Shown piece by piece: positions 208 through 34,638 of a stretch of DNA of 34,896 bases; the first letter of the stretch is position 1, and the number at the start of each line of letters is the position of its first letter. The notes under the pieces were generated by a model that saw only the letters and a list, made by a program, of their open reading frames with translations, had not been told where the DNA came from and did no database searches. Origin of the DNA: Desulfonema limicola (lineage in GTDB: Bacteria > Desulfobacterota > Desulfobacteria > Desulfobacterales > RPRI01); NCBI GenBank assembly GCA_020723255.1, contig DYJH01000020.1, positions 1 to 34,896 on the forward strand, in the 5' to 3' direction. The position numbers and the translations under genes are program-made.

Positions 208-981
208 CTATTTAAAATTTTTAATTAGCAGCTCTGTTACTTTCTTTTTCTTATCTGCACCACCGGCGCTGTAAGAAGTTGTAACTTCCTCAATATAAAA
301 ACTCTTATAAAATTGCCGAATCTCAGGCGTATTATTTATAGACATAATGAACTTGCCTTTAACTCCAACCAAAATGTCCTTCAGCTTCATGAAGTCTTCA
401 CGGCTGAATATCCCCTTACCGTAATAATCTTCGCATCCCAAATAGGGCGGATCTATATAAAAGAATGTGTTTATCTTATCGAAGCGGGACAGAATTTCGG
501 AATAATCTTTATTTTCAATATATGCTCTGGAAAGACGCAAATGCACAGCGCTCAATTCTTCCTCAATTCTTAAGAGATTCAATCTCGGTTTCGCTGTCGT
601 AGCTATTGAAAACGACGGATTGTTTATCCGTGCCGCAAATCCAAGCTTTAATAAATAATAAAACCTTGCTGCCCTCTGAATATCAGTCAATGTATCCGGA
701 GCTTCCTTTTTGAGCCGCTCGAATTCGTCTCTTGAAATAAGCGCCCATTTAAAATATCTAATAAATTCTTCCAGATGATTTTTTATCACCCGATATAAAG
801 TCACCAAATCCAGATTAATATCATTAATGATCTCAACATCCGACATAGACTCGTCCTTCTTAAATAATAGCCAGGCAGCACCGGCAAATACCTCCACATA
901 ACATTTGTGTTCAGGAATCTTTAGGATGATCTTATTTGCCAATAATGATTTCCCGCCCATATAAGCCAAAAAACTATTCAT
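208..981 (-). CDS. DNA adenine N6-methyltransferase, D12 class (Dam-like)
   Basis: N-terminal YMGGKSLL, VEVFAGAAWLLF, DPPYLG motif; 257 aa. Confidence 0.88.
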   Translation of the reverse strand: MNSFLAYMGGKSLLANKIILKIPEHKCYVEVFAGAAWLLFKKDESMSDVEIINDINLDLVTLYRVIKNHLEEFIRYFKWALISRDEFERLKKEAPDTLTDIQRAARFYYLLKLGFAARINNPSFSIATTAKPRLNLLRIEEELSAVHLRLSRAYIENKDYSEILSRFDKINTFFYIDPPYLGCEDYYGKGIFSREDFMKLKDILVGVKGKFIMSINNTPEIRQFYKSFYIEEVTTSYSAGGADKKKKVTELLIKNFK

Positions 982-1030: not shown

Positions 1031-1044
1031 TGGCCGCGCGGCCA
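1031..1044. repeat. 14-bp perfect palindrome TGGCCGCGCGGCCA
   Basis: Self-complementary sequence abutting the cloverleaf element. Confidence 0.8.
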
Positions 1045-1128
1045 TAGGAGTAGATCCTTTAATGGATTGATCCGATGTTAGCGCATCGGGTCGGCGGGGA
1101 GGCCGTAATCCTCCTCGCTTACTCCTAT
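1044..1128 (+). ncRNA. Candidate structured RNA / cruciform element with four-way junction
   Basis: Four helices account for nearly all nucleotides: 1044-1052/1120-1128 (9 bp), 1053-1057/1064-1068 (5 bp), 1069-1077/1084-1092 (9 bp), 1094-1102/1110-1118 (9 bp); the three wobble pairs are G.U only on the + strand. Confidence 0.55.
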
Positions 1129-1373
1129 TATATTAATATTAAAGTCGCCTGAGATGGAAAAGCCTTGCGCGATGACTCTATAATCAACCAGGATTTATCC
1201 TGGTCGTTTTTTGCCAGAACAACCGTATCGCCAGCCTTCAGCGTTATCATTGTTTTGATACTTACAGCGGATTCTCCTATCTGCACCACAGACTTTCCCT
1301 CGGCTGCACTATATGATACAACTTTTCCGTATCTGAATGTTTTTGACTTTACCCGGAATATTTTTTCAATCAT
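1128..1373 (-). CDS. Small phage tail-region protein
   Basis: 81-aa ORF, contiguous with upstream tail genes. Confidence 0.5.
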   Translation of the reverse strand: MIEKIFRVKSKTFRYGKVVSYSAAEGKSVVQIGESAVSIKTMITLKAGDTVVLAKNDQDKSWLIIESSRKAFPSQATLILI

Positions 1374-20188: not shown

Positions 20189-22612
20189 TTACGCCGCCCT
20201 CCCGAATCTTCCGAAAAACCCGCCACTACCAGCCATCGCACCCGGCCTATGCCCTGTCATGCTGGCTTTTTTTTCCGGATCAGCTCCTAAAGAATACGCT
20301 TTTACATTCGATGATGCCGCATGAATCGCCAACGCCAACGACCAAAATCGGTCTGAGTTCCCACACCAGCAACATTTACCGTTTCTTCTCACATAAATTA
20401 TTCCTGATGGTACTGTACAACAATATACCTCCCCGGAATAATCCGCTGCCGATACACTCTTTTTTCTCTTATTGATTTGAGGGGTAAGTCTTTTGCGATT
20501 GATGTTGATGTTATAAATTTCTCGTTTATTCTTGCCTTTCAAACTCATTTGCGGAATTGTGATTGATCCGCACATTCCGAGTTTCAACAATAACTCCTGG
20601 ATATCTGATGCAAGTCTATAACTAGTAGTCATATAATTCCATGACGTCTCGCCAAATCTTCCATTTCCAAACATCAGAGCGTCAAACAGTATCCGTAGTC
20701 TGTGCGGAGGCAAGTCAAGCAAATCTCTGGGGATGAATCGTTGATATGACCTGCCCTGAGATACAAGAGATTCATGCAGATCATGCTTTTTGTTGCGGTA
20801 TGAACTTATCTCTGTAATTTTGTTTTTCTCAAGCCAGAATTTGAACGGCAACTTTTCAATGCAGTTACGAATTGGCGAATATTCTATTTGTTTTGCATAA
20901 ATACCGCTTCTGTATTGCGTGCCCACAAACCCTTGAGAAATAAAATACCCCATAAATTCCAGCCAAATATCAATATCTATAATTTCTTGCCCTATCTTTA
21001 TGCTTTGCCGATCTATTCCCTTCCATAGCGCATTCTTTTTAAATTCAACTCTTCCTCTTTTTTTGATATCTTTTGCATATATAAACTCCCATTGATCTTT
21101 TTCTTTTATATAAAGCCTGTGTTTGGGAGTAACGAGCAGATCAATTTGCTTGTTTGCAATACGAACCATTTCACCAACATAGAATTGCTGCTGGATATCT
21201 GTGGGCTTTTCATAATCCAGTTCGTCTCCCTTTAAGACAGCCATATGGTCGTCTTTTGAAAGATCACTAAAAAATTTCCAGCCGGCTTTTGTTAGAACTT
21301 CTGTATGTTTGTCGTAGCAATGCCCGTTCTCCGAGCGTTCAGCAGTAAACCGAATATTTCCCGCTGCCGTGGTTTCTTTTGTTACTGCCCGTAAATCTGC
21401 ACGGACATGGTGGTCATACGGTATGCGAAGCTTTTTGTCTTCCATTTTTCCGCGCACAGGATAGGCCAACGCTTCTTTCACGTGAGACGTAAACGTCACG
21501 CATTCCATGCGATATTCGCCGAACTGCTTTTTTGCATCATCCCCCCAGCCTATGCCCAAACCCGTATAATCTATGCAGCATCTGTCAAGCAGAGCAAGCC
21601 AGGGCCAGAGTACTTTTTCCTGATCCGGTTTGCTCATGTTTTTTAGTGTTATTATCTTGCGGGTGTAGAGCACATCACCTGCAAGTTCCAATATCCACAA
21701 AACCGTAAGATCTTTTTTGCGTCCGATATCAAGTCCTGCATATAGCCTGCGTCCGGCCTTTTCCGCATATTCCATCTCCCATTTTTCTGTGGACGGATAT
21801 TCGCAACCGGCTATCAGATCGTATTCCAAAAATGCGACCTCATCATCACCGGGGATGCACATATATTCCTGCTGAAAGGATTCCTCATCGGAGCATCCGG
21901 ACTTTATAAAATCAAAATATTCTTTTTCATCCATTTCCTGCGCTTCGTGATCGGCAGGGATGGACTGTTGTAGTTTATAGAGAAAACCTTCATTCAGCGC
22001 ATCTTCGAGAGTCACGCGGTGATGGCTGATTTTTTTCGGATTGTTGTGTTCCTTGATTTCTCTTATCAGTAAATTGAAAAAGTTACCGCTGCCACGGTGA
22101 GTGGATATAACCTCAAGATTGCCTCCCCAGGTGATACCGGGATATGCGATAGTCCAAAGTTTGCGCGGATCGGGATGAAGGGCAAACTCATCAAGAGCGC
22201 GGCTTCCTCGTTTTCCTGCCTGAGCATCTGGGTTTGAGCTCATTGAATGTATGCGTTTTTTTGATGCAAAATTCAGCACATATGCGGATATTTTCTTTTT
22301 ATCATCAAGGACTATCTCGCCGAGATCCTCGGCGGCGGCGTGCAAAACATTAGCCCACATCTTGCAATCTTCTATAAAAAGTCGAGCCTGAAGATCATCG
22401 CGTGACGATACCCATTGATCCCATTTTGCGCCTGCCTCCGCTGTGCGTTCCGTGCAGGCATAAGCCGTGCCCCACGAAATGCCGATCTGCCGCGCTTTCT
22501 CCATCAGCTTAAGGCGGCTGCGATCGTTTATCCAGCGCTCCTGATAGCCCAAAAAAAGGCTGTCAGGATTTACGGGAATCATTTTGGCTTTTACTGTTCT
22601 TTTGCCTGTCAT
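20189..22612 (-). CDS. Terminase large subunit (Mu gp28-like), intein-containing
   Basis: EKARQIGISWGTAYA Walker A-like; GLDIGRKKDLTVLWILE nuclease motif; ENGH|intein|SDRFWSLALAIHA. Confidence 0.85.
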   Translation of the reverse strand: MTGKRTVKAKMIPVNPDSLFLGYQERWINDRSRLKLMEKARQIGISWGTAYACTERTAEAGAKWDQWVSSRDDLQARLFIEDCKMWANVLHAAAEDLGEIVLDDKKKISAYVLNFASKKRIHSMSSNPDAQAGKRGSRALDEFALHPDPRKLWTIAYPGITWGGNLEVISTHRGSGNFFNLLIREIKEHNNPKKISHHRVTLEDALNEGFLYKLQQSIPADHEAQEMDEKEYFDFIKSGCSDEESFQQEYMCIPGDDEVAFLEYDLIAGCEYPSTEKWEMEYAEKAGRRLYAGLDIGRKKDLTVLWILELAGDVLYTRKIITLKNMSKPDQEKVLWPWLALLDRCCIDYTGLGIGWGDDAKKQFGEYRMECVTFTSHVKEALAYPVRGKMEDKKLRIPYDHHVRADLRAVTKETTAAGNIRFTAERSENGHCYDKHTEVLTKAGWKFFSDLSKDDHMAVLKGDELDYEKPTDIQQQFYVGEMVRIANKQIDLLVTPKHRLYIKEKDQWEFIYAKDIKKRGRVEFKKNALWKGIDRQSIKIGQEIIDIDIWLEFMGYFISQGFVGTQYRSGIYAKQIEYSPIRNCIEKLPFKFWLEKNKITEISSYRNKKHDLHESLVSQGRSYQRFIPRDLLDLPPHRLRILFDALMFGNGRFGETSWNYMTTSYRLASDIQELLLKLGMCGSITIPQMSLKGKNKREIYNININRKRLTPQINKRKKSVSAADYSGEVYCCTVPSGIIYVRRNGKCCWCGNSDRFWSLALAIHAASSNVKAYSLGADPEKKASMTGHRPGAMAGSGGFFGRFGRAA
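20357..21319 (-). other. Intein (321 aa) within terminase large subunit
   Basis: Starts CYDKHTEVLTKAGWKFFSDL, block B-like LLVTPKHRLYI, LAGLIDADG-like motifs, ends VYCCTVPSGIIYVRRNGKCCWCGN followed by S; extein halves join to ENGHSDRFW. Confidence 0.88.
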
Positions 22613-26336: not shown

Positions 26337-27468
26337 GGGTCACCTCCTGATTTACAACCCCCTGGCCCCCTTTGTTAAGGGGGAATCCTGGGCCGGATAC
26401 TCCGAATAGGCTATTAAGATTATCAAGATCCTTCTTTGCCTGCTTGTTTGCTATTACCGGAGAAAAGCTGATGCCGATTTCCCTGAGAAGCCGTTCGATG
26501 GCCTGGATTTTTTCTTTGCCGATACCGAAAATAGCGGCGCAATCGGCTTGTGTGGCATATGCCCGGCGCAGGCGGCAAAGCTTTGCAAGCCCGTCCATGT
26601 CCATCCCCAGAGCATTTAATTGCTTGCCGAGATCAATGCCTTTATAGATCAGGTTGCGCGGATCGGGCAGGGCAAGCTGGGTGCGGAGTTTCTGCTCTAT
26701 GCCTGCATAGGCTTGTTTTTTGAGAGCTTCTTCCATTTTGTTGAAAGCGTCTATGTATGCCAGCTTGAATTCGGTCGCCCGCGGGCCGGTAAAGCCCATA
26801 GCAAGAAAGGTAAAACCGTCACGGGTGATCTGGTACATGGGCCGCATTTCGCCTTTTGCGTCCCGATAATCAACGGCAGCAAAATTTCTTGCGTTAAAAT
26901 CTTCAGGCGTATCAAGGGTTTTGATCGCTTTCAGAACATCAAAATGATTTTTCCCGAAAGCCGTTGCGATTGCAAGGCTGGTTGTGATCGGCCTGGTGCC
27001 TATAATGGCTACGACCGGTTTCAGAGATGCAAAATCTTGCGTCTCTACGGGATGAACCGGCTCTGCAGAGATTAAATCCCCCCCGCCCCCCTTTAGTAAA
27101 GGGGGAACGGGGGATTTAAGGGAATCCGATTCTGCGCCGATAACGAGTTGATTTGTGATGAATTTGCGGAATGCTTTCTTGTCGGGATAATCGGATACGA
27201 TAATAATGGAATACGCTCCCGATCTGTTTACCAATACCCGGTTAAATTCAAAATCTATCACATCATGCTTGAATTTGTCTATCCTGATTTCGTCATCATC
27301 TAAAATAGAAACAGCATCGTTTGTTTTCAAATCCAAAACCTCGCAGATATCCGAGGCGAGCCACCAGGGCTCACCCTCTTTGTCTATGACAATGCGGACA
27401 AGATGTTCCTTGAAATACTTTAAGATTGGATCGGAATAGGTGTGACTGTTGACGTGTTCTTTACTCAT
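26329..27468 (-). CDS. BRO-N / Rha-type phage regulatory (antirepressor-like) protein
   Basis: BRO-N-like EGEPWWLASDICEVLDLKTN...; Rha-like MYQITRDGFTFLAMGFTGPRATEFKLAYIDAFNKME. Confidence 0.8.
   Translation of the reverse strand: MSKEHVNSHTYSDPILKYFKEHLVRIVIDKEGEPWWLASDICEVLDLKTNDAVSILDDDEIRIDKFKHDVIDFEFNRVLVNRSGAYSIIIVSDYPDKKAFRKFITNQLVIGAESDSLKSPVPPLLKGGGGDLISAEPVHPVETQDFASLKPVVAIIGTRPITTSLAIATAFGKNHFDVLKAIKTLDTPEDFNARNFAAVDYRDAKGEMRPMYQITRDGFTFLAMGFTGPRATEFKLAYIDAFNKMEEALKKQAYAGIEQKLRTQLALPDPRNLIYKGIDLGKQLNALGMDMDGLAKLCRLRRAYATQADCAAIFGIGKEKIQAIERLLREIGISFSPVIANKQAKKDLDNLNSLFGVSGPGFPLNKGGQGVVNQEVTHV
26353..26386. repeat. Family A repeat encoding C-terminal tail of Rha-like protein
   Basis: Encodes GFPLNKGGQGVVN. 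Confidence 0.85.
27080..27115. repeat. Family A repeat inside Rha-like gene (interdomain)
   Basis: Encodes KSPVPPLLKGGGGDL. Confidence 0.85.
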
Positions 27469-27763
27469 TTTGTGCCTCCTGAGAATTTAGTAGTTTCGTC
27501 GCATTTATGAGGCGACGGGTCTCAACTACCGTTCTCAGACGGCTGGGCTTATTCACCTTTCGGTTGTTGTATTCGGCCCTATTGACCCGCCAGAAATGCG
27601 GAATTACCCTGATTTTAGGCACAAAAAAACCGCTTCTGTCGGGGCGGAATAGGCCGCTGAGAATAATAGTGCCTATATAATAATTCAGGGTGTTTATGTT
27701 TGTCAAGGAATTTTTCATGAAACTTCTTGATTTGTTAATTGTCTTCGTGTTAAAAAGATCATT

Positions 27764-28186
27764 ATGTTTACTGCAATTAAAAATACCGGCGATTCTAATC
27801 CCGGCCGCAGATATGCGCTTGAGCTTGAATACACGGTTAAGCTCACGGGGTTTTTTCTGTTTATTCTTCCCACAATGTTTTACCGGGTACTCTGGCATAC
27901 ATGGCGAAGCCGCAGGGAAATGGAACTTATTCGCACGTCTATGGACGTGTGCATAGAGGCTTGTGAGTCCGCCAAATGTGTTAACAATTACTATCCTCTT
28001 GTCAGCCGCATCCGTGACAATTTTCTTAAAGTGCTTGATATCGTTTCCCAAACACCTGCCCTGCGCATACTCAAACCTTATGTCCGGGAGCATGTTGCTC
28101 TCTGGGATGATCTGGCAGAGGATTGCATGATATCCGGTGACGATGAATTCCGCAGCCTTATCAACAAAATCGCCGCCAATGCCTGA
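27764..28186 (+). CDS. Hypothetical partner protein upstream of RelE/ParE-like toxin
   Basis: 140 aa; stop/start overlap TGATG with the next gene. Confidence 0.55.
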   Translation: MFTAIKNTGDSNPGRRYALELEYTVKLTGFFLFILPTMFYRVLWHTWRSRREMELIRTSMDVCIEACESAKCVNNYYPLVSRIRDNFLKVLDIVSQTPALRILKPYVREHVALWDDLAEDCMISGDDEFRSLINKIAANA

Positions 28187-28533
28187 TGACATATATTGTC
28201 CAATACACCCGGTCATTTAACGCCAGCCTCAAAAAGATAACCGGTAAATTTCCCAAAAGCGAAGAAGGCGTTAAAAAGACGATCAGCCTTCTTGCCAACA
28301 ATCCGGATCAGGGCGATAGATATCCCGGATTCGGAGATAATTCCGTGCGCAAGCTGCGACTCCCTTTGCCCGAATATCACATCAGTAAAAGCAGCGGCCT
28401 GCGATTGATCTTCCTTGTAACGATTGATAAAATCATTCCTCTTCATATTTATTACAAACCTCAATTCCGCTCGGAACGCACTGTCCGAGAAGAAATCAAA
28501 ACGGCTCTGAAAGAGATTCTGTCGGAACTTTAA
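28186..28533 (+). CDS. RelE/ParE-like toxin family protein
   Basis: YTRSFNASLKKI...VRKLRLPLPEYHISKSSGLRLIFLVTIDKIIPLHIYYK. Confidence 0.65.
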   Translation: MTYIVQYTRSFNASLKKITGKFPKSEEGVKKTISLLANNPDQGDRYPGFGDNSVRKLRLPLPEYHISKSSGLRLIFLVTIDKIIPLHIYYKPQFRSERTVREEIKTALKEILSEL

Positions 28534-32073: not shown

Positions 32074-34638
32074 TCAACCGTTAACCGTCAACTGTGAACC
32101 GTTAACCGATTTCCGGTTCATTATAATTTCCGTGGTTCTCACGTTTTCCCAATATCCGGATCTTTCAAGCTGTATATATTTTGATGTCTGTTCGTAATAG
32201 CGCATCCATGCCCGGTGTTCTTTCGGGATGAAAATACCGCGTGCATCATGCCGCACTAACTGTTCGTATTTATCCGCCTCGGATAGTTTATCGAGACCAT
32301 CCCATATGTCTGCGACATCGGATTTCTTGTTTTTGCGGTATTCTTCTACTTCCTTCAGAATCTGCTGTTCGTCGGCCGGTGTTAATTTTTTCGGCGATGA
32401 TTCCCCCTTATCAAAGGGGTTACAACCCCCTTCAATTCCCCCTTTGTTAAGGGGGAAAGGGGATTGTTCCGGCGCCCCTGCCGCTGTTATCCCGTCCATT
32501 TCAAGCCGCAGCAGATGAGCCGGAAGTATTTCGCTTTCAAGCAGATGCCGTCCGAGTGCGCTTGCTTCTTTCTTCTGGCGGTTCTTGTTCTCCAGTTGTG
32601 TTTCAAGACGCTCCATATCCGCATCGGTGCCGAGCTTTGCCATCGGATGCACCTTGTCCTGTTCGGGTGCGATACAGAGGAATTTGCCGTCTTCAAAAAC
32701 TGCGATATATCCCGGGTCGGCAAGATCGTAGCGGATCTCGACCTTATGATGCCGGCATTCAAGCTCCTGGTGATAATAAAACCTGCCGTTGAAACTGATA
32801 CGGCTTCCACGGATCATGACGTCTTTTTTCGACCACATAAGATAGGTAAGCATTAAAGGATCGATGCCCTCGCCGCGTCCCGGCTCAAAAATGTCTATCG
32901 GAGCATATCCCATAAGGTATTTGCTTTTATCCTGCGGGCGCCTGGAATATTCGTCGAACCATCCGGCGATTGTCCGGTGTGCCATCTCTATGGTAACGCA
33001 TTTACCGTCCATTACTTTTTCATAGATTTTACGGTGCAGGCGCTCGCCCCTTTTCATGCGGGGAGGTTTTTTGTCTATGCAAGTGCCGGTGTAGGTAATA
33101 GATTTGCGCTCTATTTCTGCGAATGTGCCGAAAAACCGTTCTACCGTTTTTGATTGCCCGTGATATGCCCACGCGAAAGTCGTTTGGATGCCGAGCTGTT
33201 CATACAGGCCGGAAAGGCCGGAACCTTCAAGATCTGTTTGCGTGAAGTATTTGGCTTTAAAAGCTTTGCCGTTATCCAGGTAAACCACACGGGGCATTTT
33301 GCCCAGGGTGATTATTGCTCTTCTGAGAGCAGCCGATATTGCAGCCGTATCTTCTGTGGGCATGATCTCCCAGCCGCAGGGAAAGTTTGAACGCATGTCG
33401 TAAAACACAATGAGTGTCATGCGTTGCGGCTTGCCGGTCCAGGGATTTATAATATCGAAATTAAGAGTGTGGCCGTCTGCAACAAGCACGTCGCCGACAT
33501 TAAGCAGTTCGGGATCACGATCAACAGAAAGAGCGCATTCGTCGTTCCAGCGCTTTTCTCCTCCGCGCTGCCAGCACCAGAGGTCATAATTATGTTCCTT
33601 GAAATCTATCAGCCAGCGCCGGTAAGTTGCATCAGAGTGGCCGTTGTCTATGCCTTTTAAATGCATGCGGCGCTTTGCTTCCCGGATAACTTCGGATATC
33701 AGCAGTCTGTTCGGATGCAGTGCGCACTGGACAATGATTGATGCCTGTTCTGCCGTTACTTTTGTTTTGCCTTTGGCCCATTTCCCCCGCCTGTCGCTAA
33801 GGTCGGTAATATTGCCGCCGGCCCGCAGGATTCGTTTCCAGCCCTCGATTGTTTGCCAGGATACCGGGCCGAGTATTTTATAAATAGCCGGGTAAGCATA
33901 TCCGCTGTTGTAAGTTAATATAAAATCATCCCGCGCCTGTGCTTTCCGGCCGTGGCCGGATGCCTTCAGGGCAGCAAGGTAATGCCGTACCAGGTCGATC
34001 TTCGCCCCGCCTGTGGCATATTGTTTGTCTGAAAGGATTACCGGAGTACCGGATTTTTGTGCTGGCAAATTCCCCTTTAAATTCCCCCTTTGGCAAAGGG
34101 CTGGCAAATTCCCCTTTAAATTCCCCCTTTGGCAAAGGGGGGCAGGGGGGATTTGTTGAGATGCAAAATCTTGCGCCTGTCCCTTAACTTCCCCCTTAAA
34201 AAAGGGGGATACAGGGGGTTGTGGGTATATAGGGTTGTTAAAAGGGGTGACACCCCCCCCGGAGAGAGTAAGGGGGGTGTCTGGGCGGGAGGATAGGAGC
34301 AAGCTTTTATTCCCGCCTGAATTTCCACTACTAAATTCCCCCTTAGTAAAGGGGGCCAGAGGGTTGTCTGTGCGGCAAGGGTTGTTCAAATTCCCCCTTT
34401 GGCAAAGGGGGGTGGGGGGGATTTGTTGAGACGCAACATTCTGCGCCTCTGCCTTATAATATAAAAGCCGGATATCGTCGGGAAGAGAAGAGATATAGAA
34501 TCGCTTTTGAACGCCTCCGCGAACAGATACGGTATCATACGGCCAGCCTTCTTTTTCCGCACGCTTCCTGGCAGCACGAATGCTGATCCCTATTAACTCC
34601 GATATATCTTCACTTGATAAAGCAATCTCTCCGCTCAT
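32074..34638 (-). CDS. MuA-like DDE transposase with repeat-encoded insertions
   Basis: N-terminal HTH; catalytic core VLVADGHTLNFD, VVYLDNGKAF, KTVERFFGTFAE; Mu C-terminal region. Confidence 0.9.
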   Translation of the reverse strand: MSGEIALSSEDISELIGISIRAARKRAEKEGWPYDTVSVRGGVQKRFYISSLPDDIRLLYYKAEAQNVASQQIPPTPLCQRGNLNNPCRTDNPLAPFTKGEFSSGNSGGNKSLLLSSRPDTPLTLSGGGVTPFNNPIYPQPPVSPFFKGEVKGQAQDFASQQIPPAPLCQRGNLKGNLPALCQRGNLKGNLPAQKSGTPVILSDKQYATGGAKIDLVRHYLAALKASGHGRKAQARDDFILTYNSGYAYPAIYKILGPVSWQTIEGWKRILRAGGNITDLSDRRGKWAKGKTKVTAEQASIIVQCALHPNRLLISEVIREAKRRMHLKGIDNGHSDATYRRWLIDFKEHNYDLWCWQRGGEKRWNDECALSVDRDPELLNVGDVLVADGHTLNFDIINPWTGKPQRMTLIVFYDMRSNFPCGWEIMPTEDTAAISAALRRAIITLGKMPRVVYLDNGKAFKAKYFTQTDLEGSGLSGLYEQLGIQTTFAWAYHGQSKTVERFFGTFAEIERKSITYTGTCIDKKPPRMKRGERLHRKIYEKVMDGKCVTIEMAHRTIAGWFDEYSRRPQDKSKYLMGYAPIDIFEPGRGEGIDPLMLTYLMWSKKDVMIRGSRISFNGRFYYHQELECRHHKVEIRYDLADPGYIAVFEDGKFLCIAPEQDKVHPMAKLGTDADMERLETQLENKNRQKKEASALGRHLLESEILPAHLLRLEMDGITAAGAPEQSPFPLNKGGIEGGCNPFDKGESSPKKLTPADEQQILKEVEEYRKNKKSDVADIWDGLDKLSEADKYEQLVRHDARGIFIPKEHRAWMRYYEQTSKYIQLERSGYWENVRTTEIIMNRKSVNGSQLTVNG
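32400..32470. repeat. Two family A repeats in C-terminal MuA coding region
   Basis: Encode EQSPFPLNKGGIEGGCNPFDKGESS. Confidence 0.85.
34061..34138. repeat. 39-bp tandem duplication in MuA coding region
   Basis: GCTGGCAAATTCCCCTTTAAATTCCCCCTTTGGCAAAGG at 34061 and 34100. Confidence 0.9.
34064..34436. repeat. Cluster of family A repeats in MuA interdomain linker
   Basis: Encodes about 120 aa rich in PPxPLCQRGNL / PFxKGE peptides. Confidence 0.85.

Follow-up and report, generated by a model that had tools for sequence, protein, structure and literature searches.

A putative divergent small-RNA gene coupled to DNA-modification operons of prophages

Described systems and the prophage locus

Phage DNA modification, be it Dam-like, Mom or C5, protects phage DNA and needs timing, and to our knowledge this timing is largely open in phages besides Mu. 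Cis-encoded antisense RNAs of the RNAI/RNAII, CopA/CopT and Sok/hok type are known from phages and plasmids, and the metagenomic D12-methyl RNA motif, from the 2017 survey of candidate structured RNAs by Weinberg and colleagues, is said to lie upstream of D12 methyltransferase genes. The C4 antisense RNA (RF01695), of about 90 nt, is also a phage-encoded structured antisense RNA. In the com-mom control of Mu, an RNA hairpin located where mom starts is the binding site of Com (PMC9369418).

The window, i.e. the whole stretch of 34,896 nucleotides analysed here, is one whole contig and carries most of a Mu-like prophage, with a MuA-type transposase (32074-34638), a MuB-like ATPase, GemA and a DUF3164 protein at one prophage end and with centrally placed head and tail genes. 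At the end opposite to the transposase lies the gene of a D12-class N6-adenine DNA methyltransferase (Dam-like; 208-981, minus strand; PF02086, E 1e-30; phrog_56, E 2.7e-88), and this site corresponds to that of com-mom in Mu. The structured element described below sits between the methyltransferase, from which it is divergent, and an upstream 81-aa ORF (1128-1373, minus strand), which with its stop codon just reaches the RNA 3' end; 62 nt containing no ORF separate the element from the methyltransferase, and the strand of the RNA (+) is opposite to that of every neighbouring gene. A protein search with the 81-aa neighbour returned no relatives, and a relative of the ORF was seen in locus L128. 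The locus has in common with Mu com-mom the position at the right end of a Mu-like phage and the type of cargo, and many homologues have Com (PF10122) first, while the enzyme can be Mom (PF25680). In contrast, Mu itself carries no such element upstream of com and the RNA of the element is on the opposite strand; furthermore, unlike in Mu, no com lies between the RNA and the methyltransferase of the window. A PF10122 search of the window's own genome gave no match, and neither did the controls of that search.

Elsewhere in the prophage, positions 27506-27591 (minus strand) match the Rfam family sRNA-Xcc1 (RF02221) at 62.6 bits, above gathering, next to a Rha/Bro-N-type regulator gene; the ORF overlapping this match (27461-28216) could not be assigned to a family and is perhaps spurious. 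The terminase large subunit (807 aa, 20189-22612, minus strand) apparently contains a LAGLIDADG intein. At the right end, two exact 20-bp direct repeats TTTGCACGCTATCTCAGAAA (62-81 and 84-103) may be end sites to which the transposase of the Mu-like phage binds, and the palindrome CCCCCTTTGGCAAAGGGGG with its variants occurs in about ten copies between 22624 and 34411, far above chance.

Fold, homologues and coding strand of the element

Positions 1031-1128 of the + strand fold at a minimum free energy of -54.9 kcal/mol in RNAfold (z -6.64; none of 200 dinucleotide shuffles folded equally well), and the fold of the minus strand is weaker (-43.9, z -4.41). The sequence-only reading had proposed a near-perfect four-way junction at 1044-1128 with a 9-bp stem and three hairpins, which RNAfold reproduces: the outer stem (1044-1052/1120-1128) closes hairpins at 1053-1057/1064-1068, 1069-1078/1083-1092 and 1093-1102/1110-1119. 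Two nucleotides of the junction, 1093 and 1119, had been regarded as unpaired; the junction is indeed near-perfect, but these two pair with each other in the RNAfold output, leaving zero unpaired junction nucleotides. We refer to the cloverleaf core (1044-1128, + strand) as stem P1 closing P4', HP-A' and P2'; it is backed by the fold, by covariation and by covariance models. The palindrome TGGCCGCGCGGCCA (1031-1044, + strand), already noticed as abutting the junction, forms a separate 5' hairpin in the window fold and corresponds to hairpin P5 of the homologues.

No family of Rfam 15 was found at gathering score for the window copy or the homologues of all three clades, relaxed thresholds included. 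ARAGORN found no tRNA in the window and Rfam had no tRNA-like match at the element, in agreement with the view of the sequence-only reading that it is not a tRNA. The C4 family likewise gave no match at the element, and two sub-threshold C4 matches were seen elsewhere in L200. Literature searches revealed no description of the element. It is single-copy in its own 3.67-Mb assembly, and blastn with the element was negative for 58 relatives, phages or plasmids; its relatives were reached solely via the neighbouring gene and covariance models.

When relatives of the methyltransferase, taken from viral contigs, genomes, same-phylum genomes and named phages, were read upstream, most had a similar structured element, in some of them with a three-way instead of a four-way junction. 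These homologues, which adjoin related D12/Dam methyltransferases of many prophages, fall approximately into three groups: clade 1 with about 30 sequences, clade 2, which includes the window, and a broad type 3 with phages VP882, phiHAP-1, KS9, B3, AM106 and KP12. Since this first set was gathered through the methyltransferase, its link to that enzyme holds by construction. In the sequence-based alignment of clade 2 (11 members including the window), 17 of the 28 pairs of the window fold changed on both sides, and compensatory changes back all four helices; the covariation score was 0.399, compared with 0.121 for shuffled alignments, none of 500 of which scored as high, and with 0.07-0.13 when the structure was slid. 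In clade 1, 90% of cells were paired, with 38 double changes versus 14 in shuffles. Homologues within a clade are related and therefore these shuffle counts are not probabilities. For type 3 the sequence alignment backs P5 and one further hairpin by compensatory changes, and scoring was limited to these two because MAFFT left P1 and HP-A out of register. The compensatory changes on which the sequence-only reading had staked its fold are hence present in both clade 1 and clade 2.

The covariance-model search which that reading had suggested as a check gave the same picture: a clade-2 model built without the window found it on the + strand at 80.4 bits (E 5.6e-17), and the clade-1 model reached it at 20.8 bits (E 0.0095). 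No match was obtained in the negative control of 687 kb of unrelated viral contigs, the unrelated output of a DNA pattern scan of viral contigs. The homologues with compensatory changes, together with this independent model match, lend weight to the earlier suggestion of a phage non-coding RNA.

The coding strand was derived from wobble pairs and fold energies. Read on the methyltransferase strand, the helices contain 50 A.C versus 10 G.U juxtapositions in clade 1 and 34 versus 5 in clade 2, summing to 84 A.C and 15 G.U. The strand corresponding to the window + strand was the more stable one in 41/41, 37/38 and 23/23 members of three sets, i.e. in 101 of 102 homologues overall. In addition, P4 loops of the type C(UUCG)G were observed in 7 of 18 cases on the RNA strand (+) and in none of the 18 on the opposite strand. 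The preference for a + strand RNA, proposed from three wobble pairs of the window, thus extends to the homologues as a G.U bias opposite to the methyltransferase and as better folding of the + strand.

Putative promoter and association with DNA-modification operons

Between the RNA and the methyltransferase start, the + strand carries features of a sigma-70-type promoter. The extended -10 element TGCTATTAT (1017-1025) of this putative promoter predicts a start near 1031 (1031-1033), exactly at the 5' hairpin, and TGNTA is found here in nearly all clade-1 and clade-2 homologues. Spaced 17 nt from it, the -35 position (996-1002) reads ATTTCTT and is weak in the window, while it is TTGATT in most clade-1 homologues, which follow the pattern TTGATT-17-TGCTAnnn. 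The motifs TAGCA and ATCAA of the sense strand, which resembled invariant leader signals, are, when read on the opposite strand, this extended -10 (TGNTAnnnT) and this -35 (TTGATT), 17 nt apart. Among the loci of the genome survey described below, TGNTA was at the -10 place in 19 of 23 versus about 22% expected by chance. A consensus promoter scan of the window did not list the small-RNA promoter, and the -35 of the window is poor. Past the junction, the RNA strand is T-rich in homologues; the terminator-like U-rich 3' flank TTATATTAATATT (1129-1141, + strand) is weak in the window, and T runs occur in many homologues. The small RNA thus appears to have its own extended -10 promoter and a U-rich 3' end, both weak in the window copy, and we infer that it is transcribed.

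To detect the element independently of the methyltransferase, covariance models were used in a genome survey that spans one phylum. Model R1 matched in 13 and model R2 in 7 of 396 genomes of the phylum, and in the order of genome G445, 75 matches (E up to 1e-5) were distributed over 54 of 347 genomes; a model of a wider set, R3, was discarded because P1 was lost. In all 27 newly fetched survey loci the first divergent gene encoded either a D12 methyltransferase (10 loci) or Com (17 loci). Of these 17 com genes, 7 were followed by the gene of an N4/N6 methyltransferase, 5 (plus 1 weak match) by that of a C5 methyltransferase, 3 by that of Mom and 1 by that of an ABC-GNAT protein. Among earlier survey matches, com was followed by Mom in L256 and L258 and by a C5 methyltransferase in L267, and L264 has a ParB-like ORF and Mom. 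In the full-length survey loci, 25-70 nt lay between the gene start and the 5' end of the covariance-model match. Three matches had a different surrounding: L277 (50.4 bits) has a Zn-ribbon/HTH ORF 265 nt away and no modification gene within 1.5 kb, the match in L260 is at a contig end, and the weak match in L275 (24.8 bits) has no modification gene beside it. Among the homologues gathered through the methyltransferase, a Com-type Zn-ribbon ORF (PF10122) lies between the element and the methyltransferase in 24 loci.

Hence, the link is one with DNA-modification operons in general, beyond one methyltransferase; this link, the promoter, the U-rich tail and the Mu-like context were all absent from the sequence-only reading. 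Comparison of sequences gives good support to the interpretation of the element as a + strand gene for a small RNA of about 100 nt, which is divergent from phage DNA-modification operons and coupled to them irrespective of the chemistry involved.

The ABC-GNAT protein mentioned above (L303, 2007-3137), encoded behind the RNA and com, combines ABC ATPase and GNAT domains and is possibly another DNA-hypermodification enzyme. At com/methyltransferase junctions (e.g. L196, L199, L168 and L194) we observed short hairpins ACGC-N5or6-GCGT with a covarying stem, which resemble the Mu Com binding hairpin ATGC-CTGCGA-GCAT.

Candidate functions of the small RNA

Antisense regulation of the methyltransferase leader was among the functions named by the sequence-only reading, and it is now the best reading, with a proposed mechanism. 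On balance we lean towards a cis-antisense regulator that represses modification of the phage DNA up to the late stage of infection. In the lysogen and in early infection, its own promoter would drive synthesis of the small RNA, and the leader of the modification gene on a late read-through mRNA (minus strand) would be the exact complement of the RNA; most of the operons have no mapped promoter and therefore the read-through is an assumption. The RNA might then oppose or pair with this leader, through antisense pairing and RNase III cleavage or through transcription collision, and the modification enzyme would stay off until late transcription overwhelms the small RNA. As the RNA is clear of the Shine-Dalgarno sequence and the start codon, an antisense effect must use the upstream leader or transcription. 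A fixed fold with drifting sequence fits a cis-antisense RNA, because the target changes along with the RNA, and a cis role is favoured by this free drift together with the unvarying divergent location at the head of the operon. Like the antisense RNAs of the RNAI/RNAII, CopA/CopT and Sok/hok type, the element is short and structured, has a putative promoter of its own opposite the mRNA leader and drifts in sequence; unlike them, it is off the Shine-Dalgarno sequence and start codon and precedes many unrelated enzyme genes, and its pairing and effect are predicted ones.

A conserved divergent RNA before unrelated modification enzymes in many proteobacterial prophages might represent a shared layer of control or protection. 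The homologues in B3, VP882, KS9 and phiHAP-1 offer a sequence handle in well-known phages, and the element would add a new family to RNA annotation and could mark modification islands.

Alternatively, the element might be a trans-acting, tRNA-sized structural RNA that binds a protein, for instance a factor of host defence, of restriction or of tRNA targeting, or else the machinery of modification, and co-travels with the enzymes as both protect the phage. We hold this as a tentative second explanation: the RNA is highly structured with no obvious seed region, it shows a strong association with modification enzymes from unrelated families and one copy (L277) stands without a modification gene, but its fixed divergent place at the operon head and its very poor sequence conservation point to a role in cis, and no conserved unpaired core was seen across the clades. 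The broader proposition that it forms a widespread undescribed class of phage structural RNAs, a standard partner of D12, C5, N4/N6 and Mom operons working in trans on anti-defence or on the modification machinery, is a little more doubtful still.

It is rather unlikely that the element is the already known D12-methyl motif of 2017. The motif shares with the element its reported position upstream of D12 methyltransferase genes and could be related to it; against identity, none of the clades has an Rfam 15 match and the name was not found in the literature searched.

A slightly poorer prospect is a sense-strand 5' leader of the methyltransferase mRNA, riboswitch-like or protein-bound, that gates access to the Shine-Dalgarno sequence. 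Such a leader would suit an element that is always just upstream of the start codon, and the complement of the -10 region can pair with the Shine-Dalgarno region, with a slight advantage when both come from one locus over combinations of different loci (6 of 5000 permutations, among related sequences). However, on the mRNA strand A.C exceeds G.U about 5:1 and the fold is worse in 101 of 102 homologues, while the antisense promoter accounts for the invariant leader motifs. A sense leader with a Shine-Dalgarno-sequestering switch was our initial reading and was dropped on the wobble asymmetry, the fold energies and the promoter motifs.

Finally, the cruciform mobile repeat raised by the sequence-only reading is suggested by the extended inverted repeats, but we consider a DNA cruciform or mobile repeat very improbable for a single-copy element with a conserved promoter and a constant gene neighbour that is tied to DNA modification, and a DNA cruciform is further disfavoured because it would lack the strong strand asymmetry of G.U versus A.C.

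Several carrier loci have further features around the element. In L124, L125, L127 and L141, the tail gene just before it resembles the variable repeat of a diversity-generating retroelement and is followed by a hairpin, and RT-14 RNA matches just below threshold are located downstream of the methyltransferase in L124 and L127. In L123, L127, L132 and L139, the methyltransferase is followed at a distance of about 400-2000 bp by a tRNA gene, suggesting integration of some carriers at tRNA genes.
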